Source: a gamma proteobacterium symbiont of Ctena orbiculata
GTDB lineage: Bacteria > Pseudomonadota > Gammaproteobacteria > Chromatiales > Chromatiaceae
Direction: 5' to 3'
DNA: 64,000 bases
Assembly: GCA_003058495.1 (NCBI GenBank)
Contig: QBVC01000018.1
Coordinates: 1-64,000 of the forward strand
The position numbers and the translations under genes are program-made. A model generated the notes under the pieces. The model was not told the DNA's origin, made no database searches, and saw only the letters and a program-made list of their open reading frames with translations. Positions within the stretch are counted from its first letter, which is position 1. Each line of letters opens with the position of its first letter. This document shows positions 6,382 to 36,146 of this stretch, piece after piece.

Positions 6382-7365
6382 CTATTTCTCATTGTTGTAT
6401 TTTTTGAACAACAGCTTTGCCGACTCCCGATTGAAGTTGGTAACCCGACGCTCCTGGCCCTTGGCGTCCGCCTGTTGTCCCGAGACAGCGGCCGGCTGTT
6501 GATTGAAGGGGTAGGTGCCTTGCGCGCCGGACTTCTGCCCGTGGTCGTCTGCATGATGCGCGACGGCAGCATGTTTGTCCCGCAAGACCTTGGCTACCAG
6601 TGCGCTGTTAAGCTGAGACCGCTGGTCGGCGAATCCGTAGACCAGCGAGGTGTCGCAAATGGTATTGATGACCCGGGGAATACCGCCGCTGGCCTGGTAG
6701 ATCAGGTTTATCGCGTTGCGGGTAAAGAGCGGTTCATTGCGCCCGGCGATCCTGAGCCGCTGATAGATATAGAACCGGGTCTCCTCTTCATTGAGCCCCT
6801 GCAGATGGTAGTCCACCGAGATGCGCTGCTGAAACTGGAGCAGATCCCGGTGTTTGAGAAGTGACCGAAGCTGGGGCTGTCCCACCAGGATTATCTGCAG
6901 CACCTGGTGCTTGTCGGCATTGATATTGGACAGCAGGCGCAACTCTTCCAGTACCTCGGGTTGGAGATTCTGCGCCTCGTCTATGATCAATACGGTACGT
7001 TTATTGTTGGCATACTGATCGATGAGAAACTTGGTGAAGAGGTCGTAGAGGCCGACCTTTTGGGTTTCCCGGTAATCCAGGCTGAAGGCAAACAGCAGCC
7101 ACTGCAGCAGCTCTCCCATCTCCTGATGACTGCTGCTGACGAGGCCGACAGTGATATCGTCATGAATCTGGTTGAGCAGGTGGCGTATCAGGGTCGTCTT
7201 ACCGCTACCGACCTCTCCGGTAACCACGGTAAAACCGGCCTGACTGAGCAGACCATACTCCAATGCCGTATAGGCGGCGCTGTGCTTTTCACCAAGCACC
7301 AGAAAACCGGGATCCGGGAGCAAGCTGAATGGCTTTTCGGTCAATCCGTAAAACTTTTCATACAT
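6382..7365 (-). CDS. ExeA-type AAA ATPase of the EPS/exosortase locus
   Basis: A P-loop ATPase of the ExeA/GspA-like family. From the ATG at 7365 it starts MYEKFYGLTEKPFSLLPDP, the classic family opening; an upstream TTG at 7374 is less likely. Walker A is GEVGSGKTT near residue 50 and Walker B is VLIIDEAQNL near 126, followed by the sensor-like LVGQPQLR. About 327 residues, with a low-complexity Gln/Ala-rich tail after residue 265. Such ATPases are standard members of PEP-CTERM/EPS loci, where they are thought to energise or regulate export. It lies 200 bp beyond rmlD in the same direction and starts its own transcription unit or extends the rml operon. A second ExeA-type protein closes the locus at 33.5–36.1 kb. 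Confidence 0.85.
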   Translation of the reverse strand: MYEKFYGLTEKPFSLLPDPGFLVLGEKHSAAYTALEYGLLSQAGFTVVTGEVGSGKTTLIRHLLNQIHDDITVGLVSSSHQEMGELLQWLLFAFSLDYRETQKVGLYDLFTKFLIDQYANNKRTVLIIDEAQNLQPEVLEELRLLSNINADKHQVLQIILVGQPQLRSLLKHRDLLQFQQRISVDYHLQGLNEEETRFYIYQRLRIAGRNEPLFTRNAINLIYQASGGIPRVINTICDTSLVYGFADQRSQLNSALVAKVLRDKHAAVAHHADDHGQKSGAQGTYPFNQQPAAVSGQQADAKGQERRVTNFNRESAKLLFKKYNNEK

Positions 7366-7577
7366 CCGACTCAAAATCCCTAGGAATGCAATTTAACTAC
7401 GCACGGCCAATTGGGCTCATTGTCTCATGCCATCACAATATCGGGCAATTCTTTATCGGGAGCGGTATGATCCTGATAAAGCGCAATAAAATTATAAGTT
7501 TATGAAATATTCAGCGATCCCTCAAACAACCGGGGAAATAAAGGCATAATGTGATGCAATCGACTCTATCTGAAGGG

Positions 7578-8477
7578 TCAGCCTGCCCGGTCGGCGATGC
7601 ACTGCTGCAAAGAGATCCGCCAATCGGGTAGCTGCAGTCCGAATCTCTGTTTCAGTTTGCTGTTGTCGAGCACTGAATAGGCCGGACGTTTCGCAGGCGT
7701 CGGGTAGTCCTGGGTGGGAACCGGTTGAATCGAACAGCTCTCTCCCATGAGCTCCAATATGCTCGAGGCGAAGCCATACCAGCTGGTTTCTCCCGCCGCA
7801 GTCAAATGGTAGGTCCCAAAAGGAGAGGGTGCGTCAGGCGCGAGCATGGGCAGCTTGTGCACGATCTGCGCGGTTGCCTCCGCAACCATCCGGCTCCAGG
7901 TTGGAGCGCCGATCTGGTCATCCACCACCGAGAGCTGTCCCTTTTCCCGGAATAGGCGCATCATGGTCAGCATGAAGTTGTGGCCATGGTTGCCGTATAC
8001 CCAGCTGGTTCGAAGCACCAGGGCATCGGCTCCGCTCGCCAGCAGTCGCTGTTCTCCCTCCAACTTGGTTTTACCATAGACACTTATCGGTGCCGGACTA
8101 TCCTCTTCCCGGTAGGGCCGGCCGCTATCGCCGGAGAAGACAAAATCGGTGGAGTAGTGGATGACTGTGGCCCCCAGCTCCGCTGCCAGTTGGCCGAGCA
8201 ACTCTGGTACATCTGCATTCAGCCGTCGTGAGAGATCGACCTCGGTCTCGGCTTTGTCCACCGCCGTATGGGCCGCGGCATTGATGATGAAATCCGGACG
8301 CTGCTGCTTCACCGTTGCGGTGACGGCCTTGGTATCCAGTAGATTCAGGCGAAGGCCTTCATCACCCGATAGTGTGGTGGGTATTACCTCACCGAGAATT
8401 CCCAGGGTACGCTGCAGCTCCCGGCCAACCTGGCCGTCGCTTCCCAGGAGGAGAAATTTCGCCGTGGCTGCTGTCAT
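7578..8477 (-). CDS. rmlD: dTDP-4-dehydrorhamnose reductase
   Basis: RmlD (RfbD) catalyses the last step of dTDP-L-rhamnose synthesis, NADPH-dependent reduction of dTDP-4-dehydro-L-rhamnose in the cytoplasm. The 299 residues begin with a Rossmann motif (LLLGSDGQVGREL) and carry the SDR catalytic YxxxK as YGKTK. The substrate-binding motif TSWVYG is also present. Length is normal. The start ATG overlaps the rmlC stop by 4 bp, so it is translated as the last gene of the rmlB-A-C-D operon. Confidence 0.95.
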   Translation of the reverse strand: MTAATAKFLLLGSDGQVGRELQRTLGILGEVIPTTLSGDEGLRLNLLDTKAVTATVKQQRPDFIINAAAHTAVDKAETEVDLSRRLNADVPELLGQLAAELGATVIHYSTDFVFSGDSGRPYREEDSPAPISVYGKTKLEGEQRLLASGADALVLRTSWVYGNHGHNFMLTMMRLFREKGQLSVVDDQIGAPTWSRMVAEATAQIVHKLPMLAPDAPSPFGTYHLTAAGETSWYGFASSILELMGESCSIQPVPTQDYPTPAKRPAYSVLDNSKLKQRFGLQLPDWRISLQQCIADRAG

Positions 8478-9052
8478 GGAATTGCGCCCCCCTTGGATCG
8501 ATAACCCGGCAGTTGTTCAGCCCCGATCTCGCTCAGCAGCGGCGCATCCCGATCCTTTTCGGCAAGAATCGGATCCACCCCGCCAGGCCACTCGATTCCA
8601 ATTTGCGGATCATCCCAGCGGATAGAGAACTGGGTTTCCGGGTGATAGTAGTCGGTGCATTTGTAGCTGAAGATCGCATCCTCGCTCAGCACCAGATAGC
8701 CATGGGCAAATCCGACAGGCACATAGAGCTGATGATGGTTGGCTTCCGACAGGCGCACCCCGACCCATTGGCCGAACCAGGGTGACCCTCGACGTACATC
8801 CACCGCGACGTCGAACACCTCGCCGCGAATAACCTGTACCAATTTGCCCTGACCGAACGGATTCTGAATATGCAGGCCGCGCAGTACGCCCTGCTGGGAA
8901 TAGGCCTGATTATCCTGCACGAATTGCTCGGGCAGGCCGGACTGTCGATAGCGCTCAGCCTGCCAGCTCTCCATAAACCATCCGCGCTGATCGCCAAAAC
9001 GCTGCGGCATCACCAGCAACACGTCAGGTATCTTTGTCGGGGTCACTTCCAT
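8474..9052 (-). CDS. rmlC: dTDP-4-dehydrorhamnose 3,5-epimerase
   Basis: RmlC epimerises dTDP-4-dehydro-6-deoxy-D-glucose at C3 and C5. From ATG 9052 (MEVTPTKIPDVLLVMPQRF) it is 192 residues, close to the family's usual ~180. Cupin signatures are visible: RGWFMESW, the QGVLRGLHIQ segment with the catalytic His, and the motif GFAHGYLVLSE. A longer frame running up to 9151 overlaps rmlA and is spurious. It starts 2 bp after the rmlA stop and overlaps rmlD by 4 bp. Confidence 0.95.
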   Translation of the reverse strand: MEVTPTKIPDVLLVMPQRFGDQRGWFMESWQAERYRQSGLPEQFVQDNQAYSQQGVLRGLHIQNPFGQGKLVQVIRGEVFDVAVDVRRGSPWFGQWVGVRLSEANHHQLYVPVGFAHGYLVLSEDAIFSYKCTDYYHPETQFSIRWDDPQIGIEWPGGVDPILAEKDRDAPLLSEIGAEQLPGYRSKGGAIP

Positions 9053-9054
9053 GG

Positions 9055-9945
9055 CTATATCTTTCTCGCGCACAGGCTGAGCAGATATTGGCCGTAGCCA
9101 TTCTTGCTGAGCGCCTCGCCCATCTGCTTCAGCGCCGATATGTCGATCCACTTCTGGCTGAACGCAATCTCCTCGGGACAGGCGATCTTCAGCCCCTGGC
9201 GCTGTTCAATGGTCTCGATGAAGTTGCTCGCCTGAATGAGGCTTTCATGGGTCCCGGTATCAAGCCAGGCGATGCCCCGCCCCATCTTCTCCATCTTCAG
9301 CCTGCCCTGTTCGAGATAGAGCTTGTTGAGATCGGTGATCTCGAGCTCTCCGCGGGATGAGGGCTTTAGCGAGGCCGCCAGCTCAGTGACCTGCTGATCG
9401 TAGAAATAGAGACCGGTTACCGCATAGTTGGACTTCGGTTTGGCCGGCTTCTCCTCAATCCCTATCACCTGGCCTTGAGGATCAAATTCAACCACGCCGT
9501 AACGTTCGGGATCCTTGACCCAATAGCCGAAAACGGTAGCCCCCGAGGTTTGCAAGGCGGCGCGTCTCAGCGACTCCACCAGGCCATGGCCATAATAGAT
9601 ATTGTCGCCAAGTATCAGGCAGCAAGGTTCGCCGGCAATGAAATCCCTGCCGATGAGGAAGGCCTGGGCCAAGCCCCCCGGTTCCGGTTGGACCGCATAT
9701 TCGAGAGTGATTCCCCATTGACTACCATCACCCAGCAAACCCCTGAAGAGCGCTTCATCCTGGGGGGTGGTAATGATCAGGATCTCTCTGATACCTGCCA
9801 GCATCAGGGTTGTCAGCGGATAGTAGATCATCGGCTTGTCATAGACAGGCAGCAGCTGTTTCGAGATCGTCAGCGTAAGCGGGTGGAGGCGGGTACCCGA
9901 GCCACCCGCCAGGATAATACCCTTGTTAATCTGTTTATCCGACAT
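9055..9945 (-). CDS. rmlA: Glucose-1-phosphate thymidylyltransferase
   Basis: RmlA makes dTDP-glucose from dTTP and glucose-1-phosphate. The 296 residues open with the nucleotidyltransferase signature [16 protein letters not shown] and then [25 protein letters not shown] holds the metal-binding Asp. Length is normal. Its ATG overlaps the rmlB stop by one base (taatg), giving tight translational coupling. Confidence 0.96.
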
Positions 9946-11000
9946 TATGCATTTCCCAACCGTTCACCTAGGTAACTGCCGTCCATAACCCTTTGACACC
10001 AGGCCTCGTTGGTCAGATACCAGGTGACCGTCTTTCTCAGGCCTGTGGCAAAGGTCTCATCCGGTGTCCAGCCCAGCTCATGCTGCAGCTTGGCCGCATC
10101 GATGGCATAGCGCTGATCGTGCCCCGGCCGGTCCTTGACGAATTGCTTCAACTGACTGTGGGGCCTGTAGCGCGAATCGGGCACCAGCTCATCCAACAGT
10201 TCACAGAGCATCTCGATCACTTCGAGGTTACTCATTTCATTGTTGCCGCCCACGTTGTAGACCTCGCCCGGCCTACCCGCCTCGAGTACCCGCCAGATCG
10301 CCTTGCAGTGATCCTCCACATAGAGCCAATCCCGTACATTGCTGCCGTCTCCGTAGATCGGCAGCGCCTCACCCGCCAGGGCCTTTTGAATAAACAACGG
10401 GATCAACTTCTCGGGGAACTGGTAAGGGCCGTAGTTGTTGGAGCAGTTGGTGGTGAGCACCGGCAAGCCGTAGGTATGGTGCCATGCCCGCACCAGATGA
10501 TCCGACGCCGCCTTGGAGGCTGAATAGGGAGAGTTGGGCGCATAGGGGGTGGTTTCAATGAATTTCCCCTCCTCACCCAGGGAGCCGTATACCTCATCGG
10601 TGGAGACATGGAGGAAACGAAACGCCTCGGCCTCATGGCTCGCCAAACCGGCCCAGTAGGCACGTGCGCACTCCAGCAGGTTGAAGGTGCCGCCGATATT
10701 GGTGTCGATGAACTCGGCCGGTCCGTCTATGGAGCGGTCCACATGACTTTCGGCGGCAAAGTTTACGACTGCACCCGGGCTGAAGCGTTCGAACAGACCG
10801 GAGACCAATTCCCGGTCCTGTATCTTTCCCTGAACGAAGTGGTGGCGGGGGCTCTCCATGATCGTCTGCAGGGTATCCAGATTTCCCGCGTAGGTGAGCG
10901 CATCGAGGTTCACCACCTGAATATCCGGCTTAGCCAACAGGTGGTGTACAAAATTACCGCCAATGAAACCGGCTCCTCCGGTTACAATTATCGTCTGCAT
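9945..11000 (-). CDS. rmlB: dTDP-glucose 4,6-dehydratase
   Basis: RmlB converts dTDP-glucose to dTDP-4-dehydro-6-deoxy-glucose with bound NAD. The 351 residues begin [19 protein letters not shown] (NAD-binding GxxGxxG). They carry the catalytic YxxxK as YSASK and the family motif [12 protein letters not shown]. First gene of the rmlBACD operon, which supplies L-rhamnose donor for the polysaccharide assembled by the genes that follow. A −10-like tataat lies about 60 bp upstream. Confidence 0.97.
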
Positions 11001-11062
11001 GCTCTATTTGCCACTTAATTTACAATAGGTTAGAACGTATACCCAGGGAGTATCAAAGCGGC

Positions 11063-11068
11063 ATTATA
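11063..11068 (-). promoter_or_regulatory. Candidate −10 element (tataat) for the rml operon
   Basis: Read on the minus strand, ctctgTATAATgcc lies 63 bp before the rmlB ATG. The −35 at 17 bp spacing (atgtta) is poor. The same ctctgtataatg word precedes dapL at 42.27 kb, which makes a shared housekeeping promoter plausible. Confidence 0.4.
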
Positions 11069-11157
11069 CAGAGAGCGGGGATGCCTAACATAATGTTTTT
11101 TTGATATTAATTATTTATTTAACGGATTAGCGTCAATACTCCCCAGTGTGCGGACAA

Positions 11158-13566
11158 CTATTCTATCTGATTCAACAGCGCCTTCGCCTCTTCAATGCCC
11201 TCAAATTGCTTTTTTGACCCCAGGGCGGTGTTGATATGCCGTTTGGCGTCTTCCATCCGCCCCTGCTGGAAGTAGGCGAATCCGAGATGATAATCGATAT
11301 CCGGGAGTCCTGAACCCTTGCGTGCGGCGCGCTGCAGGATTGGCAGCGCCTTGTCTATCTCACCCCGCTTGACGTGTACCCAGCCCAGGGTATCCAGAAT
11401 AATGGGATTCTCAGAGAGTTCGAAACCTTCAACCAACTCAAGCGCCTTGTCCAGCTCGCCCTGGTTTGCCCCGTCATTGAGCATCAGCATGGCCAGATTA
11501 TTGGAAGCCAGCAGGTGTTTGGGGTGCTTTTTCAGAATCTCCTCATAGATCTCCACGGCATCCTGTGCGCGACCGGCAAGGGAGTAGTTGTTGGCCAGAT
11601 CGATGCCCAGCATTGAGTCCGCCGTCTTGTCAAAGCCCTCTTCCAGTATGCCCACGACCTCATCCTTGCTGCCCTTGAGGATGTTGAGTTTTACCAGGTT
11701 TCGATAGGGCACGGGCCACTGCGGGCTCAGCTCTCTTGCACTGTTGAAGGCCGCCTCGGCCAAATCCCACTGCTTCTGCGAAAGATGCACCTCGCCCTTG
11801 AGATTCAAGGCGGCGAAGTGCTCGGGATTGACCTTCACCACCTGCTCGATCCGCTGCAAGGCATCGTCGGGCTTTTTCATCGCGAAATAACCCTTCGCCA
11901 ATCCAACCAGGGCCTCGATGGAGTCAGATTTGTATTCGAGCACCTTCTCGAAATCGGTGAGGCTCCGATCGGCCATATCGCGGTTCAGCCTGGAGACCCC
12001 CCGGAAGTAGTACCCGAGTGGGTTCTCAGGATGCTTCGTCACCAGCACCTGGGCGACACCCTCAACCTCGTCCCAATGGGCAAGTTTTTCATGGACCAGC
12101 GCCAATGCCTGCAGAACCTTGACATTGCCAGGGGCGAAGCGACGCATCTTCTGCAGCACCTCGATGGCGTCATCGAACTCCCGGGTATTGATCAGCAACT
12201 GCACCAGCTCGAAATTGGCGGCCGCCTCTTCAGGCTGAACCTTTATCGCATCCTCGAGGCTCTCCCTCGCCAATTGGATCTCCCCCTTTTTCAGATGGGC
12301 CCTGGCCTTCAGGCGGTGGGCCTTGACATAGCTTGGATCCTCACGCAAAAGGGTGCGAAGATCCGCAATACCCTTGTCTGCATCGTCGCTCATCAGCGCC
12401 AAACCGGCCCTGATCATCAGTGCATCCTTGAATTTCGGATCTGCCGCAAGGACCTCATCGAGCAGAGCGCCGGCTTCCGCAATGGACTGCTTCTTGATCA
12501 GGGTGCTCGCCTTCATGCTCTTGGCCGCCAGCCCATCCTCCGAGGCGCCCGCCAGATCGATGACCTGGGAAAGGGTGTTGTTCGCTTCATCGTCGCGCCC
12601 AACCGCCAGGTAGTGCCTCGCCAGTTCGAGCTTCAGTCCGGTGTGTTCCGGGGTCTCGCTGACATACTGCTCCAGCAGTGCCTCCGCCCGATCCGCTTCA
12701 CCCTGATTTTTCAGCAGGTAGATCAGGGCCAGTTTTGCGTCCATGTTCTGCGGGAGATCCGTAATCGCCTGTTGCAGGACCTCAACTGCCCGGGCGTTGT
12801 CCCCCTGCTTCTGAAAATAGGTGGCGAGATGGAGTCGGTTTTGCAGATCATTGGGTTTGTTACTGATCAGATCGGAAAGTACCTTGACCACCTCCTCATG
12901 GCTCTCGGCTTGCGCATGGAGCCGCGCAAGCAACAGGTAAGAGGCCGCCCGGTCGGTATGCTTCGCCAGAGACTCCTTAGCGATCCGGATCGCCCGCTCC
13001 ATCTCCCCCTGGTCCGCATAGAGCGCCGCGAGCAGGGAGGAGGCCTCGACATTGCTTGGATCCGACTCGATAACAGCGAGGACATCATTGATGGCGGCAT
13101 CCTTCTCCCCCATCTTGGCCTTGACAAAGCCCTTGAGCACCATCGCGGCGGCGTCGTTCGGTTTCACTTCCAGCGCGGCATCGGCGGCGGCAAGCGCCTT
13201 TTCGGTCTCTCCGGCCAGCGCGAAAATCGTGCCCAGATGTACCTGGGCGTCCACATGCCTGGGATCGAGCTCAGTCGCCCGTAAAAAAAGCGCATAGGCC
13301 TTGGGCCAGTTCTCCTCCTTCTCCTCGATCTGCCCGAACATGTAATAGGCATTGGCATCCTTCGGGTCGATCTGCAGCACATTTTTGAATTCCAGGCGGG
13401 CCTTTGTGAAATTCCCTTGTTCAAAAAGCTCCATGCCCCGGTCGAAGTACTTTTGTTTGCTTTCCGTTTTGTCAGCGCAAGCCGTACCGAGGAGCAACAA
13501 AAGGCTGATGATGATCAAAGAGAGAAGCTTGTTAATGGAGAATTGATTGTCCAGATTCATCTTCAT
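11158..13566 (-). CDS. TPR-repeat lipoprotein of the PEP-CTERM/EPS system (PrsT-like)
   Basis: 802 residues. The N-terminus has a signal peptide rich in Leu ending LLGTAC, so Cys30 is a likely lipidation site and the protein is probably anchored in the outer membrane. The rest is a continuous array of about twenty tetratricopeptide-type helices (for example KYFDRGMELFEQGNFTKARL and ANAYYMFGQIEEKEENWPKA). Large TPR lipoproteins of this kind are a hallmark of PEP-CTERM/EPS loci (PrsT family) and are thought to scaffold polymerisation or export. It sits between the rml operon and the exosortase gene on the same strand, with 157 bp to rmlB and 387 bp to xrtD. Confidence 0.88.
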   Translation of the reverse strand: MKMNLDNQFSINKLLSLIIISLLLLLGTACADKTESKQKYFDRGMELFEQGNFTKARLEFKNVLQIDPKDANAYYMFGQIEEKEENWPKAYALFLRATELDPRHVDAQVHLGTIFALAGETEKALAAADAALEVKPNDAAAMVLKGFVKAKMGEKDAAINDVLAVIESDPSNVEASSLLAALYADQGEMERAIRIAKESLAKHTDRAASYLLLARLHAQAESHEEVVKVLSDLISNKPNDLQNRLHLATYFQKQGDNARAVEVLQQAITDLPQNMDAKLALIYLLKNQGEADRAEALLEQYVSETPEHTGLKLELARHYLAVGRDDEANNTLSQVIDLAGASEDGLAAKSMKASTLIKKQSIAEAGALLDEVLAADPKFKDALMIRAGLALMSDDADKGIADLRTLLREDPSYVKAHRLKARAHLKKGEIQLARESLEDAIKVQPEEAAANFELVQLLINTREFDDAIEVLQKMRRFAPGNVKVLQALALVHEKLAHWDEVEGVAQVLVTKHPENPLGYYFRGVSRLNRDMADRSLTDFEKVLEYKSDSIEALVGLAKGYFAMKKPDDALQRIEQVVKVNPEHFAALNLKGEVHLSQKQWDLAEAAFNSARELSPQWPVPYRNLVKLNILKGSKDEVVGILEEGFDKTADSMLGIDLANNYSLAGRAQDAVEIYEEILKKHPKHLLASNNLAMLMLNDGANQGELDKALELVEGFELSENPIILDTLGWVHVKRGEIDKALPILQRAARKGSGLPDIDYHLGFAYFQQGRMEDAKRHINTALGSKKQFEGIEEAKALLNQIE

Positions 13567-13953: not shown

Positions 13954-15531
13954 TCAATTGGGAATGTAGTCAGCCAAATGGGGTACAACCTTGCCTGCAA
14001 AATCCGCCAAACGCCTGTCTCCGTCAACCCATTCCTCACCCACACCAATCGATGTGGTCAATCTAACCAGGGCGCCGTCTGTCCGGTGTTTAGTCAGGCC
14101 ATCGAAAAACAGATACCATTTAGCCAGCCATTCATTGGTAATCACTCGCCCTCGTTGCTGAAACCAGTAGTAGACCAGTTGCTTAATCTCGCCCCGCTTG
14201 ATGATCAAGCGGTTAACACTCAGTGGCTTTCCATTGACCTGCAATCCAGGCAGTTCTATCTCTGTTACCGTCTCAATCTCCCATCCCCCGCCTGGTATGC
14301 AGGAGCGAGGACTATGAATAGAGGAACCGGCCTGTTGGTTGGCATAATAGGCAACATAGAAATTAACTTCCGACCCCAAAGAATCGGCATAGTCACCGAT
14401 CAGGTAATCGTCCAGTTTCAATGTCTTGAGATAGACATCCTCTAGCCTATCCTCGTCACCTCGCCAATTGTCGATCTGCATGGGAAAACCACTGAAGGCC
14501 TGACGCTCGGGCAGGGTATCCTGCTGTGTCTGTATGTACAGGGTGCTCACCGCTATCGCGGCAACGGAAGCAAGGATCGCATAGTGAACGGGGGTTACAG
14601 GCCGGGTGTTATAGTCAATACCTTCAGGCAGGGCCTTGGACGCCTCCAGCCCGAACACATCCCTTAGCCGCTGTTTTTTTCCACCAAGCCTGGCCAGCAA
14701 GGCCATCTCCAGCAACAGAATCAAGAGACAAGCCATAAAGATGACCCAACCCTCGAAATAGTGTAAGAATCCGTCGGCATGTTCCTTACCCCAGTTATCC
14801 ACCAATACACCGATCACACCGATACGAAAACTGTTCATGAGCACGGTGATGGGGATACTGGAGAGAAAAACGACAACCCTCTTCCACAACTCCACCCGGT
14901 AGAGATAGACGGCAAGAAATGCCAGGCTTACCAACGGAAACAGATAACGCAGCCCATCACACGCCTCCACGACCTGGAGCTTGTAGTCACCCAAGTCAAT
15001 TACATTCCCCTCGAGATATACGCTGATGCCGAACCAGCGAATCACCTCAACACCTAGCTGGGATGATATAAGCTGGAGTTTTCCTGAGAGAGAGTTGTAG
15101 AGAAATGGAGGGAGTGGAACGATGAAAAAAAGTAATATAAGGGGGCCGGCGACTATCTTGAATGCCGGCCACCCCAGGAGTGCATAAGCCAGACCGATGA
15201 CAGTAAGGACCAGGGCATACTGTACCAGCGTATATGTCCCGCCCAATTCACCCATAAGGAGGAATATTCCTCCAATCAGTACTATAGAAATACCAAGCAA
15301 AGAGGGTTTGAAAGTCTCTAATATGAGTTGATCACGACGCTGCCATATGAGGTACGCTGAAATGAAAGGAATAAAGTATGCATAGCCGTACTCCTCCCTT
15401 GCACTCCATATGCGTATAAAATCCTTTATCCCGCCCCAGAATCCGTAGCACAGCAGAATTGCAGTAACTGCCAGGATCAACCATACCAGCGACGAAGTTT
15501 TCCATCCTTTTATTACTTCTACATTTGTCAT
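13954..15531 (-). CDS. xrtD: VPLPA-CTERM-specific exosortase XrtD, fused to an EpsI-type domain
   Basis: 525 residues. The first ~280 form a polytopic exosortase core with the catalytic triad visible: Cys191 in EACDGLRYL, Arg236 in NSFRIGVIG and His257 in FLHYFEGW. The second half (about 345–520) is an EpsI/DUF3485-like periplasmic domain (FPMQIDNWRG, then HSPRSCIPGGGW). Exosortases are membrane transpeptidase-like enzymes that cut C-terminal sorting signals and are coupled to EPS production. The XrtD subtype recognises VPLPA signals, and such a protein is encoded at 29.9–30.4 kb in this same locus, which supports the subtype. Upstream gene order places it between the PrsT-like lipoprotein and the polysaccharide assembly genes. 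Confidence 0.88.
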   Translation of the reverse strand: MTNVEVIKGWKTSSLVWLILAVTAILLCYGFWGGIKDFIRIWSAREEYGYAYFIPFISAYLIWQRRDQLILETFKPSLLGISIVLIGGIFLLMGELGGTYTLVQYALVLTVIGLAYALLGWPAFKIVAGPLILLFFIVPLPPFLYNSLSGKLQLISSQLGVEVIRWFGISVYLEGNVIDLGDYKLQVVEACDGLRYLFPLVSLAFLAVYLYRVELWKRVVVFLSSIPITVLMNSFRIGVIGVLVDNWGKEHADGFLHYFEGWVIFMACLLILLLEMALLARLGGKKQRLRDVFGLEASKALPEGIDYNTRPVTPVHYAILASVAAIAVSTLYIQTQQDTLPERQAFSGFPMQIDNWRGDEDRLEDVYLKTLKLDDYLIGDYADSLGSEVNFYVAYYANQQAGSSIHSPRSCIPGGGWEIETVTEIELPGLQVNGKPLSVNRLIIKRGEIKQLVYYWFQQRGRVITNEWLAKWYLFFDGLTKHRTDGALVRLTTSIGVGEEWVDGDRRLADFAGKVVPHLADYIPN

Positions 15532-20635: not shown

Positions 20636-20697
20636 CCTATTCACACATGGTTTTCATACTTATATTGCCGATACGGAATATCTCAATGCTATTGCCT

Positions 20698-22840: not shown

Positions 22841-22903
22841 GTGTTATCTACAATTCATTATATTTTCGTAACCTTATCTCGCGTCTGGCAAAGCTATGAC
22901 AGA

Positions 22904-23683: not shown

Positions 23684-23692
23684 GACATCACC

Positions 23693-24589: not shown

Positions 24590-24593
24590 TTAC

Positions 24594-25718: not shown

Positions 25719-25762
25719 AGTCGCTCACCATATCAATGGAATTCTTTGTATCCTTGTTTTTT

Positions 25763-27930: not shown

Positions 27931-28007
27931 ACATTGCCATGCCTACAAATATTCTAACAAACACTATTTAGTTGAATATCAGTGAATAGTTTTAATTGAA
28001 TTATTTA

Positions 28008-29615
28008 TCATTGCCCAATCTCTATACCCATTTTTCTCAGCGCTATATATAAAACAACATCCATTGGTTTAATAAATAGATGTACTGCGGCTATAGCCAA
28101 GACCAGGGTAGCGATCAAACTTGATAGTACTGCGATAGTTTTGTTCGTGTGCCTTCTGGTGTCCTCACTGGTTTCAATGTATGGGATAACTGCCAACGGC
28201 GGAGATTTCGTAATCACCATGACATCCTTAACGCCATATATAGCATCATCCATACTTTCTTTGACAAAAACGTTACCTATGCCACCCGCAATCCCGAAAA
28301 CAAAGCCGAGAAGCAGAATGGCAATTCGGTTCGGTTTGTCAGGCTCTTCAGGTAACTGCGGCGGTTCTATCAGTGAAAATTTCTCGCCCTTCCTCTCCCG
28401 CTCAAGGGATTCTGCCAATTCAGCCTCCAGTTGCTTAGCCTTTACCTCCTGATACTTGGCCAGGGCGTTTTCATAGTCGCGGGTCAGATTGCGGTACTCT
28501 CTCTCTACCTGAGGGCTTTGCAGTAAACGATTTTCGAAGTCATTGATCTTTTCTTTGATATCGTTCCTCATACTCTTGAGGGTAGCCAATTCACTCTCTG
28601 TAGCTTGGAGCTGAGTTTCCAGCTGCAGGTAAGCGGGATTGTCAGCATGGGTTTTGTTCCGCTTGGCACTGGGATTAGCCTCGACCTCCATTTTAAGCAC
28701 CTCAATCTCATCCTTCATCTTGATCAAGGTTGGGTGGTTTTCCGTATAGCGCGTTGCCAATGCCAGGTATTCTGTTTCCAAAGACATTAGGCGGTCTTCA
28801 GCACCCAAGACCCTGTCACCTCTACTGTTATAGAGATCACTGGTCGGATTAATCTGCGACAGTTCAGACTGAAGATAAATTTTACGCTCTTCAAGGCTTC
28901 GTATTTGTTGAGCGGTGTCCGTCAACTCTCTTTCACTGCGTTCCATTAGCTGCATATTGAGCTGTTGTAGTTCCGGCAAATTATTTACATGCTTCTCCTT
29001 GAACTTAGCCAGTGATGTCTCCAGATCCGCAATTTCCTGTTTGAGTTTATTGGCCTCAGCACCTAGGAAGCTCGAGGTTTCCAGAGCAGATTGCGTGCGA
29101 CGCCTAAGGTTTTCATCGAGATACAATGAAACAAGCTCATTGGTAACCTTTTGGGCGATACGCGAATCTTTACTGCTGAAGGCTAGTGTGAAGGCAATCG
29201 TCGCTGTTGTAGGACGGCCACTGCGCGGGTCAACCACATCGGCACTGATCATTTCCAGTTTGATATTTTCGCGGAGCTTTTCTGCCAGAAGCGATAGACT
29301 CGTATCATCCCGCTCTTCCTTGAATAGCCCGTAATTCTCGATAATACTTCCCAAGTTCTCTGTCGTCATTACCCGCTGACTGATCACCTGGATCCGCTCA
29401 CCGGCATAGGAGGTAACTGTCGAACGGACGAGTTCGCTGGGAATTTCTTGCTGTTCAATTAAGATGGTGGCTTCAGAACGATAGATGGATGGCAGACCAA
29501 GCGCCAGTCCAATGCTCAATAGCAGTATGATCGCAGCCGGTACGATCAGCTGCATTTTTCGTCGTTTCAGGATGGCCAGATAGTCGCCGATTCCTAGTAA
29601 CTCTTCCTCTTCCAT
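28008..29615 (-). CDS. Wzz/Lyp-like chain-length determinant of the EPS locus
   Basis: About 535 residues. It has an N-terminal membrane helix (LIVPAAIILLLSIGLALGL), a long periplasmic coiled coil (about 180–400) and a C-terminal pair of helices. The proline-rich EPPQLPEEPDKPNR just before the helix is the usual Wzz signature. This is the polysaccharide co-polymerase that pairs with the BY-kinase encoded next. I used ATG 29615; a GTG at 29627 would add four residues and neither has a strong ribosome-binding site. A hydrophobic tail (490–520) beyond the second helix is longer than in most family members. Confidence 0.87.
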   Translation of the reverse strand: MEEEELLGIGDYLAILKRRKMQLIVPAAIILLLSIGLALGLPSIYRSEATILIEQQEIPSELVRSTVTSYAGERIQVISQRVMTTENLGSIIENYGLFKEERDDTSLSLLAEKLRENIKLEMISADVVDPRSGRPTTATIAFTLAFSSKDSRIAQKVTNELVSLYLDENLRRRTQSALETSSFLGAEANKLKQEIADLETSLAKFKEKHVNNLPELQQLNMQLMERSERELTDTAQQIRSLEERKIYLQSELSQINPTSDLYNSRGDRVLGAEDRLMSLETEYLALATRYTENHPTLIKMKDEIEVLKMEVEANPSAKRNKTHADNPAYLQLETQLQATESELATLKSMRNDIKEKINDFENRLLQSPQVEREYRNLTRDYENALAKYQEVKAKQLEAELAESLERERKGEKFSLIEPPQLPEEPDKPNRIAILLLGFVFGIAGGIGNVFVKESMDDAIYGVKDVMVITKSPPLAVIPYIETSEDTRRHTNKTIAVLSSLIATLVLAIAAVHLFIKPMDVVLYIALRKMGIEIGQ

Positions 29616-29627
29616 TGTCCGCGTCAC

Positions 29628-29946: not shown

Positions 29947-30435
29947 TTAGACTGAACGACGCGCGCTAAAGGTCGCAAAGCCGACCAGAGCAGAGCCAAA
30001 CAGCCACACGGCCGCCGGGAGTGGAACCGCACTAACGGTCACATCGTATACCGCGCCGGCAAAACCATTTGAAGTGCCATTGAAAGTAAGCGTGTATGTG
30101 TCAGCAACCAAGTTTCCCAGTGAGAAAACGTGGCTTGTAAGGTCGTCGAATGTCGCAGTGAAGCCGCCAGAAGTCACGGTGAATGATGACACATCGAGAA
30201 TAGGACCAAATGTCGAACCGATTTCATTGTCAACAAGCGACACGCTGATAGGCGAATCTGCAAGTAGCGTGAAGGTACCCGTATCAGTAAATGTACCCGG
30301 GTCGTTTACATGATTGTAAGTTTCGGTTTCGCCTAGTGTCAGAGTACGATCCAGATTAGCCGCCAGTACACTACTGCTAGCAACCAGCGCTAATACACCA
30401 ACTGTCAGGTTTGATATCCATCTATACGACTTCAT
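29947..30435 (-). CDS. VPLPA-CTERM sorting-signal protein, predicted XrtD substrate
   Basis: 162 residues. A signal peptide (to about residue 25, SSVLAAN) is followed by a Thr/Ser/Gly-rich beta-strand body with no cysteine and the FxxTF-type segments DPGTFTDTGTFTLLADSP. The C-terminus has VPLPA (137–141), a hydrophobic helix and a basic tail SARRSV. This tripartite signal is the VPLPA-CTERM type that XrtD processes. It is the only such protein I can see in the window and it sits in the same locus as the exosortase. A gagg lies 8 nt before the ATG. The body gives no biochemical function. Confidence 0.9.
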   Translation of the reverse strand: MKSYRWISNLTVGVLALVASSSVLAANLDRTLTLGETETYNHVNDPGTFTDTGTFTLLADSPISVSLVDNEIGSTFGPILDVSSFTVTSGGFTATFDDLTSHVFSLGNLVADTYTLTFNGTSNGFAGAVYDVTVSAVPLPAAVWLFGSALVGFATFSARRSV

Positions 30436-31377: not shown

Positions 31378-32793
31378 TTGCTTGATGTTAAGCAAACCGA
31401 TCGGTCTCTACTTCAACGACGCAACAGTCTGACCACTTCGCTACAGGCCTTCCTGGACGGCCTGGCCGTGGTGATATTGATTATCGCTCTGCCTCTTCTG
31501 TTTCACGGTAATTTAAGCTCCCACTACATCATATTGGCCCTGGCACTGCTGGGTATCATGTCGGTGATCTATGACCGCATGAACATCTATCGTCATCACG
31601 GCACCATGACGAAGAAGGCCTTCAAGCTCCTGAAGGCATGGAGCAGCGCCTGCGCCTTTCTGCTGCTCTTGGCCTTTGTTACCAAATATACAGAAACCTA
31701 CTCCAGATCGGTCGTGTTGATCCTGTTCGTACTGGGTTACCTGGCCCAGGTCAGCCTCCATTTCGGGGTGAGATTGATCCAGCGGCACATGGTCTCCCAG
31801 GAGGCCAATACCAAGGCCTTGATCATCGGCAGCGGTGCCTTGGCGAACCACTTGTATGAGCGCATCAATACCAACCCGTGGATGCCGGAAGAGGTCATTG
31901 GCGTTGTATCATCAACCGGTAACGACAATGCAACAGATGCGTCAAACAGATCGTCCATGCCGATCCTCGGCAACCTGGAAGACATAAAGCGCTTGATTAA
32001 AGTCCATGACATCCAGACGATCTATATAGCTGTCTCCCTGGACAGTTCGCCGATGATCCAAAAGATCTATTTCGATCTGTTGAATGAAAACGTCAATATA
32101 CACTGGGCCCCAAATATCTTCGCCTTGAATCTGATCAACCACAGTGTGAAGGAGTTGGCAGGGATACCGATTCTGACCCTCTCGGAAACCCCGCTGATCG
32201 GATCCCACCTGTTGATCAAGGCGATCGAGGACCGGGTACTGGCGTTCCTGATTTTGATCCTCGTCAGCCCGATCATGCTGGTAACAGCAATCCTGATAAA
32301 GTTCGAATCTCCGGGTCCTGCCTTTTTCAGGCAGGAGCGTACCGGGTGGGATGGCAAGAACTTCAGGATCTGGAAGTTTCGCAGCATGAAGCTGCACACT
32401 GAAGAGCATGGCGTGGTCAAGCAGGCAACCAGGGATGATCCGCGCGTCACCCGCATCGGACGCTTCATCCGCCGCACCAGCATCGATGAACTGCCGCAAC
32501 TGTTCAACGTATTGGCGGGCCAGATGTCCCTGGTCGGCCCCAGGCCCCATGCCCTGCAACACAACCTGGAATACTCAAAGCAGATCGAGGCCTACCTGGC
32601 GCGTCACCGCATCAAGCCCGGCATTACCGGGTTGGCGCAGATTCGTGGATTTCGTGGCGAGACCAAGGAGCTGGAGCAGATGGAGAAGCGGGTCAAGTAT
32701 GACCTGGAGTACATCAACAACTGGTCGCTCTGGCTCGATCTCTCGATCCTGGTGAGGACTCCCTTCTCCCTGAAGAATGACAATGCCTACTGA
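31378..32793 (+). CDS. Undecaprenyl-phosphate sugar phosphotransferase (priming transferase)
   Basis: 471 residues. The N-terminal half has four to five membrane helices and a Rossmann-like central domain (TKALIIGSGALANHLYERI). The C-terminal bacterial sugar transferase domain starts near 280 (IEDRVLAFLILILVSPIMLV) and has FRQERTGWDGK, SIDELPQLFNVLAG and MSLVGPRPH. Enzymes of this WcaJ/PssY type transfer a hexose-1-phosphate from a nucleotide sugar to undecaprenyl phosphate, starting each EPS repeat. I chose the TTG at 31378, since aggggga is 7 nt upstream and there is no other in-frame start nearby. It begins a plus-strand unit continued by cysC. Confidence 0.9.
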   Translation: MLDVKQTDRSLLQRRNSLTTSLQAFLDGLAVVILIIALPLLFHGNLSSHYIILALALLGIMSVIYDRMNIYRHHGTMTKKAFKLLKAWSSACAFLLLLAFVTKYTETYSRSVVLILFVLGYLAQVSLHFGVRLIQRHMVSQEANTKALIIGSGALANHLYERINTNPWMPEEVIGVVSSTGNDNATDASNRSSMPILGNLEDIKRLIKVHDIQTIYIAVSLDSSPMIQKIYFDLLNENVNIHWAPNIFALNLINHSVKELAGIPILTLSETPLIGSHLLIKAIEDRVLAFLILILVSPIMLVTAILIKFESPGPAFFRQERTGWDGKNFRIWKFRSMKLHTEEHGVVKQATRDDPRVTRIGRFIRRTSIDELPQLFNVLAGQMSLVGPRPHALQHNLEYSKQIEAYLARHRIKPGITGLAQIRGFRGETKELEQMEKRVKYDLEYINNWSLWLDLSILVRTPFSLKNDNAY

Positions 32794-32856
32794 TTCTTCG
32801 ATTTGACTCTTTAGACGATTTTTCCTTAACCACTTGTTGAAATAAGGTGTACCAAC

Positions 32857-33465
32857 ATGGATGACAATGTCTTTTGGCATCATGCTACCGTGACCCGTGA
32901 ACGGCGGGAAAAGATGAACCTGCACAGGGCCAAGCTGCTCTGGTTTACCGGTCTCTCCGGGTCCGGCAAGTCTACTCTGGCCCACGCCCTTGAAGAGCGG
33001 CTCCACCAGCGCGGTTGCAGGACCTATGTCTTCGATGGCGACAATGTCAGGCACGGCCTGTGCCGGGATCTGGGCTTTGGCATCGAGGACCGCACGGAGA
33101 ATATCCGTCGCATCGGCGAGATGTCAAAGCTGTTCGTGGATGCGGGCACCATCGCATTGACCGCCTTCATCTCCCCCATTCGGGAAGACAGGGGGAAGGT
33201 ACGCAACCTCTTTCAAGTCGGCGATTTCATCGAAGTCTATGTCAAGGCGTCGGTTGACACCTGCGAAGAAAGGGATGTGAAGGGGCTCTATAAAAGGGCG
33301 CGAGCGGGGGAGATCCCCAATTTCACTGGCATATCCTCGCCCTATGAAGAACCGGAAAACCCCGAGATCGTTATCGATACGGAAAACAGGGAGATCGATG
33401 AATGCGTGGATTCCCTCGTCGAATCGCTGGAGTCACTTGATGTGATCCCCACCGTGGTGGTTTGA
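32857..33465 (+). CDS. cysC: Adenylylsulfate (APS) kinase
   Basis: CysC phosphorylates APS at the 3' position to make PAPS, the donor for all sulfotransferases. The 202 residues carry the P-loop GLSGSGKST (32–40), the APS-binding [10 protein letters not shown] and the family motif FISPIREDR. Length is normal. It follows the priming transferase by 63 bp on the same strand, inside the EPS locus. The four sulfotransferase genes lie a few kb away, so this copy is probably dedicated to EPS sulfation. No ATP sulfurylase is visible in the window. Confidence 0.95.
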
Positions 33466-33524
33466 GTGGCGTATTGCATGCGTTCCCACGCCGGCGTGGT
33501 GGGAACGCGCCATCCGGCAACCGC

Positions 33525-36146
33525 CTATTCCCCACCTTCGCTCAATACGATCTCGACCCGCCTGTTGCCAAATCTTTTCTCAAAATCTTCATGCTCTTCA
33601 TTCGTCGTCTTGGGTACAGGACCCCTCCCCTCGACTCTAATTCGTTCAGTCGTGATACCCCTTTCGGTGAAGTATCTGGAAACCGCGTTTGCCCGGGCGA
33701 TGGACAGGTTCTTGTTGTAAACAGGATCACCACTCGCATCCGTATAGCCTGTAATGGTCACCGTTGATTTGTCGTTGAGCGAAAGGACGATGTAGAGATC
33801 GTTCAGCATTTCCTTGAATTGTTCAGGAATATTGGGATTGTCAAACTCAAAGTAGATCTGAAATTTCATATCGATAGGGGCAGTGACCACCGGCCCCGCC
33901 TCTCTGGCAGACTCACCAATTTCAATCTTCTGGTATTTTGACTGTGTCGCTATGTAGTCCTTGCTCGCCCTCTCCACGGCATCCGCATCATCAATTGAAT
34001 CGATCATTTCCGATTGCATGCGCCGGTCGCCGTCTATATTGGCCTCACTACCAGTTCCACTATCGGTTGATGCCGTGGTGGTACCCGTTGTCCCCGGTTC
34101 CAGACTACTCTCGGGCGTCACCTGGGGCGCATCGATTGCGGAGACATCCGACTCGCTTTTGACAAGCTCTTTTTTCTGCTGACTGTCGTGCTCAGGCGCT
34201 TCCGGTATTTGTTGCTTTTTTTCAACCGCAATCGAAGCCGGATCGTCAGCCTCCGTTTGCGGTTCGGATAGCTTCTGCCACTTCGCAGTCAAACCATCAA
34301 CGGCCCGTTGAACGCTCTCCGGTTGGATGACAAACAGCGCCAGGAAGAAAGCCCCTGCAATCACGAATAAGAATATATTGCGCAGCGACCTCCCTAGTGT
34401 GCCGGTGAAGAGCTCATCGGCCTCGAACGTCTCGATGGTATTGATCAACCCTCCCTTCTCATCAATTTCATGTTTACGTCTTTCCGCCTGCATGGACGGC
34501 AGGTTGAGGATCTCTTCCGGTTTCCCTTCACCGCTCGTCTTGGCGGCTTCAAGCGCGACCGGGGCGGTCACATCGTGAACTTGCGATGTGACGACATCTA
34601 TTTCAGATGCATCGACAGAAGCTTTTTCAACAGCTCCCGATAGCTGCTCCAGGCTCTCTGTATCGACACGTATCTCTGCTGCGTCAGCTGGGATAGTCGG
34701 TGCTGTATCGCTGCCGACCTGCTCCTCTGCGGTCACTGTTCTCTCTACCGTGGCATCGGTTTCTACCAGCTCCTCACCGTAAGGGAAAAACTCGGCCGCA
34801 TGTTCCGTATCTTTCAGTCCCGTCTCTTCATAGCCTTCATCTTCTGCTTCCACATCGGGTGTAAATACCGCTTCTGCATGATCCTCGGACTCCCCGCTCA
34901 ATCCCTCCCCGACCGTTTCAGAGACGGGCCCGTCAAAACCAGCATCCGCTTCTTCAGCCACATCCCCGTGTTCACTTCGAACAGCATCTTCCTCTTCAAC
35001 CACATCCGCGAGTTCGCTTTGCCCGGCCTCCTCATGTTCGGCCATTTCCGCGAACTCGCTTTGTTCAGCATCCACTTCCAGGGCCGCTTGCGGGTGTTCG
35101 TGTCGGCCAACATCCTCATCTACGGCGCCTGCAGTAAGCTTGTTTCGATCGACCTCCTCCCCTTCGAGCCCTTCCCTGTGTTCGCTTTGGCCAACACTTT
35201 CACCTGTAATCGCTTTTGCTGAGTCACCAACCTCACTCGCTGCCTCACCGTCGTCCGGCAGCTCCGCTTGCCCTTCTCCCCGATCATAGTTTTCCCTGAA
35301 TTCTGTAAAGGTCTCTCCGCTCTTTATGGACAAACGCTCTTCATCGAAGAGCTCCTTCGCCACAATCCATACATCTTCTTCTGTGAACTCATGCTTGGCC
35401 TCCAATGCGCCATAGAGAAGCAGTCTACTTACTACATGGTTGATCTTTCTTGGGATGCCTTCTGTCAAGTAGTGGATGAGTGGATAAATCACCTCATCCA
35501 GTTCAGGATCGTGATCCCAGCCGACAATCCCCAGCCTGTGCTCGATGTAGCCTTGTGTCTGCTCAAGATTCATCAACTCAATCTTGCAGCTGGCGATCAA
35601 CCGCTGGCGGATCTGCTCCATTCCCGGACTCAATATCAGCGAACGAAGCTCATCCTGACCGACAAGGAATATCTGAAAAAGCGGGTGACTGCCGCTCTGC
35701 AGGTTGGAGAGGAGACGCAGCTCTTCCAGACCGTTCAAGGTCAGATTCTGCGCTTCATCGATGACAATGACGGCCCGCCTACCCGCGTTGTACTCTTTGG
35801 TGACGAAATCTTCGATATGTGTGAGCAGCGTGGCCTTGTTGTAGCTCTCGGCAGGCAGACCGAACTCCAGGGCCACCTTTCGCAGCAGCTCTTCCGCCTG
35901 CAGCTGGTTGGTTACCAGGTTTATGGCAAGGATTTCGGAGCTATCTATTTCCGACACGATATCGCGTATCAGTGTCGTCTTGCCTGAACCCGGGCGCCCT
36001 GTAATCATGACGAAGCCTTCACCCTGCTGCAGGGCGTATTTCAAATGAGACCACGCCTTGAGGTAGTTTTTGTGTGCAAACCTGAACTGTTCATCGGCGC
36101 TCAACCGGAAAGGATTTGCATTTAATTTATAATAGGATTCAAACAT
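33525..36146 (-). CDS. ExeA-type ATPase fused through an acidic linker and membrane helix to an OmpA-like domain
   Basis: 873 residues with four parts. An AAA ATPase (1–275) has Walker A GRPGSGKTT (50–58) and Walker B VIVIDEAQ (126–133). A long acidic linker (280–585) includes four 14-residue repeats (347–402). A membrane helix (about 591–607, IFLFVIAGAFFLALFVI) follows. The tail has a Ser/Thr-rich spacer and an OmpA-like domain (763–868) with the peptidoglycan-binding pair D803 (YTDASGD) and R818 (LSIARANAV). This predicts a cytoplasmic ATPase tethered by its periplasmic end to the cell wall. ExeA-family ATPases often have a C-terminal peptidoglycan-binding domain, but an OmpA domain is unusual to me. 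It closes the EPS locus, opposite in strand to cysC and converging with it. Confidence 0.85.
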   Translation of the reverse strand: MFESYYKLNANPFRLSADEQFRFAHKNYLKAWSHLKYALQQGEGFVMITGRPGSGKTTLIRDIVSEIDSSEILAINLVTNQLQAEELLRKVALEFGLPAESYNKATLLTHIEDFVTKEYNAGRRAVIVIDEAQNLTLNGLEELRLLSNLQSGSHPLFQIFLVGQDELRSLILSPGMEQIRQRLIASCKIELMNLEQTQGYIEHRLGIVGWDHDPELDEVIYPLIHYLTEGIPRKINHVVSRLLLYGALEAKHEFTEEDVWIVAKELFDEERLSIKSGETFTEFRENYDRGEGQAELPDDGEAASEVGDSAKAITGESVGQSEHREGLEGEEVDRNKLTAGAVDEDVGRHEHPQAALEVDAEQSEFAEMAEHEEAGQSELADVVEEEDAVRSEHGDVAEEADAGFDGPVSETVGEGLSGESEDHAEAVFTPDVEAEDEGYEETGLKDTEHAAEFFPYGEELVETDATVERTVTAEEQVGSDTAPTIPADAAEIRVDTESLEQLSGAVEKASVDASEIDVVTSQVHDVTAPVALEAAKTSGEGKPEEILNLPSMQAERRKHEIDEKGGLINTIETFEADELFTGTLGRSLRNIFLFVIAGAFFLALFVIQPESVQRAVDGLTAKWQKLSEPQTEADDPASIAVEKKQQIPEAPEHDSQQKKELVKSESDVSAIDAPQVTPESSLEPGTTGTTTASTDSGTGSEANIDGDRRMQSEMIDSIDDADAVERASKDYIATQSKYQKIEIGESAREAGPVVTAPIDMKFQIYFEFDNPNIPEQFKEMLNDLYIVLSLNDKSTVTITGYTDASGDPVYNKNLSIARANAVSRYFTERGITTERIRVEGRGPVPKTTNEEHEDFEKRFGNRRVEIVLSEGGE
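34941..35108 (-). repeat. Four tandem 42-bp coding repeats (14-aa acidic units)
   Basis: Residues 347–402 of the ExeA–OmpA protein are four consecutive 14-residue units: GRHEHPQAALEVDA, EQSEFAEMAEHEEA, GQSELADVVEEEDA and VRSEHGDVAEEADA. They share an SE(or HE)-xxxxxEE-xxA pattern. A fifth degenerate unit may begin at 319. Such repeats make a flexible, highly acidic spacer and may vary in number between strains. Confidence 0.65.

Follow-up and report, generated by a model that had tools for sequence, protein, structure and literature searches.

The synechan (xss) cluster of Synechocystis PCC 6803 is a Wzx/Wzy-type exopolysaccharide cluster that includes sulfotransferase genes and yields a sulfate-containing product (available text of PMC8205485), and sulfated capsule loci, with isolation of the sulfated polymer, have been reported for Vibrio sp. 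KMM 8419 and Cobetia marina KMM 1449 (available text of PMC11641403 and PMC11766843). Here we describe a locus at positions 6382-36146 of a 64,000-nucleotide stretch of DNA (contig QBVC01000018.1 of assembly GCA_003058495.1, forward strand, positions 1 to 64,000; hereafter the window) from a gammaproteobacterial symbiont of Ctena orbiculata, whose genus is Candidatus Thiodiazotropha, the lucinid clam symbionts. We consider this, with a probability of about 0.75, to be a Wzx/Wzy-type exosortase D exopolysaccharide locus whose inner cassette (~17.7-26.7 kb) would build a sulfated repeat unit. A sulfated exopolysaccharide had been proposed in an initial annotation of the window; it remains the best reading and is strengthened by related gene sets on plasmids, but the accompanying wordings on completeness, sulfate-donor supply, rhamnose and rarity did not survive unchanged, as detailed below.

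Like the synechan cluster, this locus combines Wzx/Wzy-type genes with sulfotransferase genes, and the Pfam families used in that study to search for sulfotransferases (PF00685, PF03567 and PF13469) are those matched here. The synechan cluster, in contrast, carries the regulators XssQRS where this locus has a frame with exosortase D (XrtD), and the terms PAPS (3'-phosphoadenosine 5'-phosphosulfate), APS (adenosine 5'-phosphosulfate) kinase and exosortase are absent from the available main text of PMC8205485. The Vibrio and Cobetia loci share with ours the presence of PAPS-synthesis genes, sulfotransferases and dTDP-rhamnose genes in one polysaccharide locus, the PAPS-synthesis genes of Vibrio KMM 8419 being described as second copies in the available text of PMC11641403. 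However, these are ABC-transporter capsule loci with cysN, cysD and cysC, whereas the locus studied here has Wzx/Wzy, exosortase D and cysC alone. The XrtA/PEP-CTERM (EpsH) loci (PMC1569441) match it in the PrsT, ExeA-like ATPase, co-polymerase and kinase families, but differ in that our locus has XrtD and, in addition, sulfotransferases and CysC.

The central feature of the cassette is a run of four sulfotransferase genes (ST1 to ST4) alternating with two GT4 glycosyltransferase genes (GT1 and GT2) between 20.7 and 26.7 kb, an arrangement already recognized in the initial annotation and confirmed by Pfam. Three of the four sulfotransferases, sited among the glycosyltransferase genes, score above a Pfam cut-off. 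Across the 4.53 Mb genome six distinct open reading frames (ORFs) match any of the three sulfotransferase families (E <= 0.001); given that four of these lie within 6 kb in the locus, with one each on contigs 2 and 15, the clustering is not a matter of chance. The top structure match of both ST1 and ST3 is 3rnl, named merely 'Sulfotransferase', and among structures whose substrate is named ST1 is closest in sequence to heparan sulfate 3-O-sulfotransferases, and the two taken together to heparan sulfate 3-O- and N-sulfotransferases, which are enzymes acting on sugars. ST1, ST2 and ST3 display recognizable 5' and 3' PAPS-binding motifs and ST4 a looser set, motifs whose meaning is in part general background in this field. 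They were further interpreted following the available text of PMC11625862. ST4 was identified by a weak PF13469 match, a PAPS-loop-like PRSGTT motif and a full-length plasmid relative (38% identity), which is annotated as a sulfotransferase and lies beside a Wzy, and itself scores only 23.6 bits; phage records contained no match to ST4. We also noted related 241-residue cassette proteins (L082:12916-13641 and L142:6937-7662) with PRSGNT/PRSANT and IRxP sulfotransferase-like motifs and no Pfam sulfotransferase match, which could possibly represent an unrecognized sulfotransferase family. When the Pfam-less 241-residue proteins of this kind (genomes G096 and G160) were compared with the ST1/ST3 profile group the probability was 5.5%, and they were excluded from the strict sulfotransferase counts.

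The strongest support for the action of these sulfotransferases on the polymer of the locus comes, at the level of sequence, from related cassettes on plasmids of Rhodobacterales. A search of 72,556 plasmid records recovered ST3 homologues (E <= 1e-20) in four, and the same four are the best four of the 35 records with GT1 homologues (E <= 1e-30). The plasmid of Leisingera S132 (CP083559) encodes homologues of GT1 (54.7% identity), GT2 (42%), ST3 (56%), ST2 (62.5%), Wzx (37%) and Wzy (34%), all within an exosortase-E (XrtE) locus. The order GT2-ST3-ST2-Wzx-Wzy is common to Leisingera and the window, with GT1 and ST1 sitting between ST2 and Wzx in the window, and GT1 inverted beyond Wzy and ST1 missing in Leisingera. 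The Pontibrevibacter plasmid (CP049814) has GT1 (54%), GT2 (39%), ST3 (54%), ST4 (38%), Wzx (27%) and Wzy (35%) along with rml genes, that of Paracoccus alcaliphilus (CP067126) has GT1, GT2, ST3 and Wzx homologues, and in Jannaschia W003 (CP083545) GT1 adjoins ST3. Thus, GT1 and ST3 recur in all four, GT2 and Wzx in three and Wzy in two, while ST2 is found in Leisingera and ST4 in Pontibrevibacter, and ST1 has only weak matches among the four plasmids. Unlike our locus, these plasmid loci have no annotated XrtD, no cysC in the stretches read, and different frame genes. Transfer between classes is the likeliest cause of this distribution, and the pattern fits a model in which GT1, GT2 and ST3 would make a shared sulfated core to which ST2, ST4 and ST1 would add optional sulfates. 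Given that the sulfotransferases recur together with homologues of the GT4, Wzx and Wzy proteins, they appear to travel with the sugar-assembly genes, which favors a single sulfated repeat unit. The Leisingera stretch at 4397-23000 (L168) encodes exosortase E, a VPEID-CTERM protein and two sulfotransferases, and represents a second exosortase type tied to a polymer that is probably sulfated. As it joins an exosortase with sulfotransferases, and as the Vibrio KMM 8419 and Cobetia KMM 1449 capsule loci have been published, the suggestion that such a combination is not often seen does not hold as worded.

The same recurrence with homologous glycosyltransferases bears on whether the sulfotransferases might instead modify small metabolites or host-derived compounds, and lie in the locus by accident. 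The PF00685 and PF13469 families do include small-molecule enzymes, and ST3 also shows weak matches to cytosolic sulfotransferases; nevertheless, the adjacent genes from ST4 to Wzx are only 4-63 bp apart or overlapping, and the nearest named-substrate matches of ST1 and ST3 are glycan sulfotransferases, making this explanation highly improbable.

To place the locus in its genus we scanned for the WcaJ-type priming transferase of the window. This recovered 17 loci, of which the top 11 share 76-89% identity and the other six 42-44% in the C-terminal domain only. Ten of the top 11 bear titles that name either Candidatus Thiodiazotropha or gamma-proteobacterial symbionts of Ctena and Stewartia, which we take to be lucinid clams. 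The eleventh (L100, JAKSBD010000676.1), titled as a Bacteroidales metagenome-assembled genome, is a Thiodiazotropha-like locus with 82% identical WcaJ, probably a binning or labelling error; its contig ends inside cysC (82 residues, 90% identical) and includes a cassette piece with one sulfotransferase by profile. WcaJ at a minimum of 77% identity was found in 14 of the 22 genus genomes; L100 stands outside these 14 loci, and G156, with a 33% identical wcaJ, was not counted as a carrier. In one genome (G153:C36:6506-7915) wcaJ has an in-frame stop, which may reflect an inactive locus or an assembly error at this point.

Comparison of these loci revealed a conserved frame surrounding an exchangeable inner cassette. 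On the XrtD side the ATPase, rmlD, C, A, B, PrsT and XrtD are kept in all 11 frames read, including the window; the other side, where the neighbourhood is whole, consists of BY-kinase, Wzz, WcaJ and mostly CysC. Across the genus loci the conserved frame genes share 55-92% identity with the window, and more variable are the ATPase-OmpA fusion (34-81% over parts) and the VPLPA-type protein (39-64%), the latter not being found in the G063 and G159 loci. In contrast, the gene content between BY-kinase and XrtD is exchanged. The window cassette has its Wzx in common with G149 (71%) and its Wzy and GH71-like proteins with G063 (52% and 51%); given these affinities to different relatives, the cassettes are mosaic. 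The G+C content of the cassette is 42%, versus 54% in the frame part 6382-15531. Ten cassettes are complete on one contig, with recognized sulfotransferases numbering four in the window (G000; one weak), two in G007 and G159, one each in G063, G096 and G149, and none in G146, G150, G160 and G161; G118 (split over two contigs) and G151, G153, G157 and L100 (cut by contig ends) were left out. In the comparison of sulfotransferase sets that the initial annotation had proposed, sulfotransferases were thus recognized in six of ten complete cassettes and none in four. All positives were confirmed by Pfam; among the zero calls, all eight cassette ORFs of G146 and four of G160 were scanned with Pfam and none of G150 and G161, so that the calls for G150, G160 and G161 otherwise rest on home-made profiles. 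The cassettes of G150 and G161 are, gene by gene, 89-99% identical to that of G146.

Several cassettes also encode glycan-active proteins: GH71 in the window and G063 (in G063 by identity), a pectate-lyase-like protein in G149, a carbohydrate-binding domain and weak GH39/GH10 matches in G118, and a hypothetical glycosyl hydrolase (GHL15) in G146. The large cassette proteins of G007, G096 and G160 have no Pfam match. The glycan-active proteins mostly differ in family between cassettes, as though every polymer came with a processing enzyme suited to it.

The cysC gene of the window starts 63 bp after wcaJ on the same strand, and CysC directly adjoins WcaJ in 11 of the 14 genus loci. In the remaining three (G150, G161 and G159) a search of the 21 or 40 kb read gave no cysC, and the ATPase-OmpA gene begins 55-84 bp after WcaJ. 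Besides the locus copy, the genome of the window has two further full cysC genes. The copy of contig 26 is preceded by sulfite reductase genes and a PF01507 (cysH-like) gene and, judging from this context, is the assimilation copy; the PF01507 match adjoining the sulfite reductase genes is the only one in the genome, and no CysD was seen. Immediately after this run lies a gene for a 176-residue protein with a CGSTT motif and no Pfam match (L086:7715-8245). Of the 11 genomes with a locus CysC, 8 have three full APS kinases, whereas G160 and G157 have only two and G151 has one; those lacking a locus CysC, likewise 11, have two each, except for one in G158. In a tree of 33 APS kinases (the 11 locus copies and 22 of the 39 full non-locus genus copies), the locus copies form one group with support of 100/100, placed under midpoint rooting next to or within stand-alone copies typified by that of contig 13. 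This is consistent with CysC having joined the locus once, early in the history of the genus, and having later been lost in some members or, in G159, never having been there.

Several observations weigh against a sulfated polymer with a dedicated sulfate-donor supply. With regard to the enzymes, ST4 falls below its Pfam cut-off (21.4 versus 27) and has no match among solved structures, and its fold predicted from the lone sequence had a mean pLDDT (predicted local distance difference test score) of 34.6 and was not used, while the nearest structure to ST2, a heparan sulfate (HS) 6-O-sulfotransferase, is matched at an E-value of 0.011 only. Furthermore, no scanned protein of the locus, to which the search was confined, matches the OPX/Wza polysaccharide export family, and the description of the locus as complete was thus overstated. 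The lack of an OPX exporter would suit an alternative in which the sulfotransferases decorate another surface glycan, be it lipopolysaccharide, a glycolipid or a glycan on exosortase-sorted proteins, and the secreted polymer is unsulfated. Exosortase loci couple polymer and sorted proteins. Bacterial sulfotransferases are known to act on lipo-oligosaccharides in rhizobia and mycobacteria (available text of PMC8205485). However, the GT4 and Wzx genes between which the sulfotransferase genes lie belong to the locus itself, and homologues of both are found together again on plasmids of another class; we regard this alternative as unlikely.

With regard to the donor, a CysD, CysN or Sat gene was not found in the locus. 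A tblastn search of the 18-50 kb read from each of the four plasmids gave no cysC, so that cassettes of this type can do without a linked PAPS supply. G146 has a locus CysC and no recognized sulfotransferase, and G159 has two sulfotransferases and no locus CysC. A 2 x 2 table of locus CysC against recognized sulfotransferases in the ten complete cassettes (5, 1, 2, 2) gives p = 0.5, and one counting the sulfotransferase-like protein of G160 (6, 1, 1, 2) gives p = 0.18, three of the rows sharing one cassette and hence not being independent. Covariation was accordingly rejected as proof of the linkage. The claim that the locus has its own PAPS supply is overstated: only CysC, the last enzyme of the route, is linked, the ATP sulfurylase (Sat) being encoded on the same contig at a distance of 63 kb; two further cysC genes exist, and G146 and G159 are exceptions. 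These data also bear on the idea that the linked CysC does not serve sulfation, and that PAPS is a regulatory signal or general sulfur metabolism has been captured by the locus. In Vibrio vulnificus induction of the brp exopolysaccharide needs PAPS (available text of PMC6113621), and the retention of CysC in G146, the insignificant association and the plasmid cassettes that manage without a linked cysC all agree with this idea. Yet most genus genomes hold two other full cysC genes, one of them here beside the cysH-like and sulfite reductase genes, and of the three genomes with the common sulfotransferase-free cassette G150 and G161 have no locus CysC; we regard this idea, too, as unlikely.

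Under the sulfated-polymer reading, WcaJ would transfer the first hexose phosphate onto undecaprenyl phosphate, GT1 and GT2 would add further sugars, and ST3, ST2, ST4 and ST1 would transfer sulfate from PAPS onto different positions in the cytoplasm. The product would then be flipped by Wzx and polymerized by Wzy, with Wzz and BY-kinase setting the length, XrtD sorting and anchoring VPLPA-CTERM proteins in the same matrix, and the GH71-like enzyme trimming or releasing the polymer. CysC would convert APS to PAPS and, being a same-strand neighbour of WcaJ, might allow priming and sulfate-donor supply to be co-expressed. Family membership of WcaJ suggests glucose as the first sugar, and the presence of two GT4 enzymes suggests a short repeat. 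Thus, assuming that no glycosyltransferase is contributed from outside the locus, four sulfotransferases per approximately three sugars would be a high ratio compared with synechan, which has two sulfotransferases to eight glycosyltransferases (available text of PMC8205485), against four to three here. Rhamnose is a possible constituent; however, since the rml genes belong to the conserved frame whatever the cassette, being kept in all 11 XrtD-side frames, it need not enter the polymer, and the designation rhamnose-containing does not stand as written. Mannose is a competing candidate, as both Leisingera and Pontibrevibacter have a gene for mannose-1-phosphate guanylyltransferase close to the cassette.

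The gene families of the locus, assigned by Pfam and NCBIfam profile scans of its proteins, are listed in Table 1. These scans bear out the initial calls of rmlB, A, C and D, Wzx, Wzy-like, Wzz-like and BY-kinase-like proteins, of APS kinase next to the priming transferase, and of an exosortase, whose type is XrtD; the GH71-like hydrolase and the VPLPA-CTERM-like protein had gone unmentioned. All elements of a Wzx/Wzy-dependent set (priming transferase, Wzx, Wzy and co-polymerase/kinase) are present. An XrtA assignment of the exosortase was rejected (186.5 bits against a cut-off of 208), the XrtD profile giving a far higher score. Of five frame proteins compared with the NCBIfam XrtA-system cut-offs only PrsT reaches its threshold, both ATPases, the kinase and the Wzz-like protein falling below, while the GNVR (PF13807) and AAA_31 (PF13614) domains of the co-polymerase and kinase exceed their Pfam cut-offs. 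The C-terminus of the 29947-30435 protein consists of VPLPA, a hydrophobic stretch and RR, its TIGR03370 score being under the cut-off. A promoter/terminator scan of 19000-33700 gave fewer sites than in shuffled sequence, and no inference was drawn from it.

Table 1. Genes of the exosortase D locus with their positions in the window and the supporting profile or identity data.
Feature	Position	Strand	Evidence
ExeA-like ATPase of exosortase/exopolysaccharide system, frame gene	6382..7374	-	TIGR03015 293 bits, below cut-off 324.5; 64-82% identity in 10 other genus loci
rmlD	7578..8477	-	PF04321 324.5 bits
rmlC	8474..9151	-	PF00908 242 bits; listed start is an upstream GTG; overlap with rmlA
rmlA	9055..9945	-	PF00483 261.6 bits
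rmlB	9945..11000	-	PF16363 310 bits
PrsT-like TPR protein	11158..13566	-	TIGR02917 326.6 bits, cut-off 312.2
XrtD, exosortase D with EpsI-like C-terminal domain	13954..15531	-	TIGR04152 569 bits, cut-off 400
GH71-like glycoside hydrolase, possible polymer trimming/release	15906..17267	-	PF03659 145 bits; GH71 structures E 1.5e-18
Wzy-type repeat-unit polymerase	17664..18995	-	TIGR04370 48 bits, cut-off 40; no Pfam match; 35% to Pontibrevibacter plasmid O-antigen polymerase
Wzx flippase	19373..20644	-	PF01943 39.1 bits, cut-off 28.2
ST1 sulfotransferase	20698..21615	-	PF13469 46.0 bits, cut-off 27
GT1, GT4 glycosyltransferase	21560..22840	-	PF00534 76 bits; 49-55% on four Rhodobacterales plasmids
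ST2 sulfotransferase	22904..23683	-	PF03567 39.0 bits, cut-off 22; 62.5% on Leisingera S132 plasmid
ST3 sulfotransferase	23693..24589	-	PF00685 49.4 bits, cut-off 22; 40-56% on four Rhodobacterales plasmids
GT2, GT4 glycosyltransferase	24594..25718	-	PF00534 110.6 bits; 36-42% on three plasmids
ST4, probable sulfotransferase	25763..26674	-	PF13469 21.4 bits, below cut-off 27
BY-kinase-like tyrosine autokinase	27115..27930	-	TIGR03018 170 bits, below cut-off 230.65
Wzz-like polysaccharide co-polymerase	28008..29627	-	TIGR03007 252.5 bits, below cut-off 278.85
Small secreted protein, VPLPA-CTERM-like C-terminus, likely XrtD substrate	29947..30435	-	TIGR03370 22.4 bits, below cut-off 25.35
WcaJ-type priming hexose-1-phosphate transferase	31378..32793	+	TIGR03023 484 bits, cut-off 410.75
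APS kinase CysC, locus copy, apparently intact	32857..33465	+	PF01583 224.5 bits
ExeA-like ATPase with C-terminal OmpA domain, frame gene	33525..36146	-	TIGR03015 289 bits, PF00691 58.6 bits

Beyond the genus but within the family, we examined 22 XrtD neighbourhoods, each up to 40 kb and some cut by contig ends. Sulfotransferases occur in at least six of these, five by three home-made profiles and G004 by Pfam. The five of 22 given by the profiles is a lower limit, since they missed both the G004 match near XrtD and the contig 2 sulfotransferase of the window's own genome; they were built from the four sulfotransferases of the window and those of G007, G063, G096 and G118, which match by construction. 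An APS kinase was found in one of the 22 (G036:C1 near 3510314), as a domain of a 583-residue ORF about 16 kb from the XrtD gene; this ORF, left out of the APS kinase tree, may be a Sat-CysC fusion and an independent instance of linked PAPS synthesis. Among the loci examined, a linked CysC is thus peculiar to Candidatus Thiodiazotropha, bar G036.

In the open-licence literature the combination of sulfotransferase, exosortase and exopolysaccharide retrieved the synechan paper only, the available main text of which does not use the term exosortase. The matches listed include no account of CysC in an exosortase D frame, of cassettes being exchanged within the genus or of a link to Rhodobacterales. 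Searches for Thiodiazotropha with exopolysaccharide or sulfotransferase (the spelling 'sulphotransferase' being outside the search) recovered no such locus, the sole mention of a sulfotransferase referring to clam foot genes, and the main text of the symbiont papers searched does not mention polysaccharide, sulfotransferase or exosortase. The general design is known, while the pairing of a probably sulfated exopolysaccharide and CysC with exosortase D and the history of the cassettes look new.

The locus supplies candidates for bacterial carbohydrate sulfotransferases, and the defined neighbourhoods of their homologues are of use for assigning specificities. Relatives of Thiodiazotropha occur on plant roots, as described in the part of the literature available, so that the genus comparison makes a clam host likely for the strain of the window. 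Lucinid clams acquire their symbionts from the environment (available text of PMC6461927). It is possible, though rather doubtful, that a fixed secretion and PAPS-supply frame with swapped cassettes, some shared with marine Rhodobacterales plasmids, gives each lineage a sulfated or unsulfated coat of its own, which would act in recognition, host mucus binding or tolerance in the clam gill and might resemble sulfated glycans of the host. A variable and probably sulfated surface polymer in a symbiont genus is, in any event, a concrete candidate for the means by which clams recognize their symbionts.

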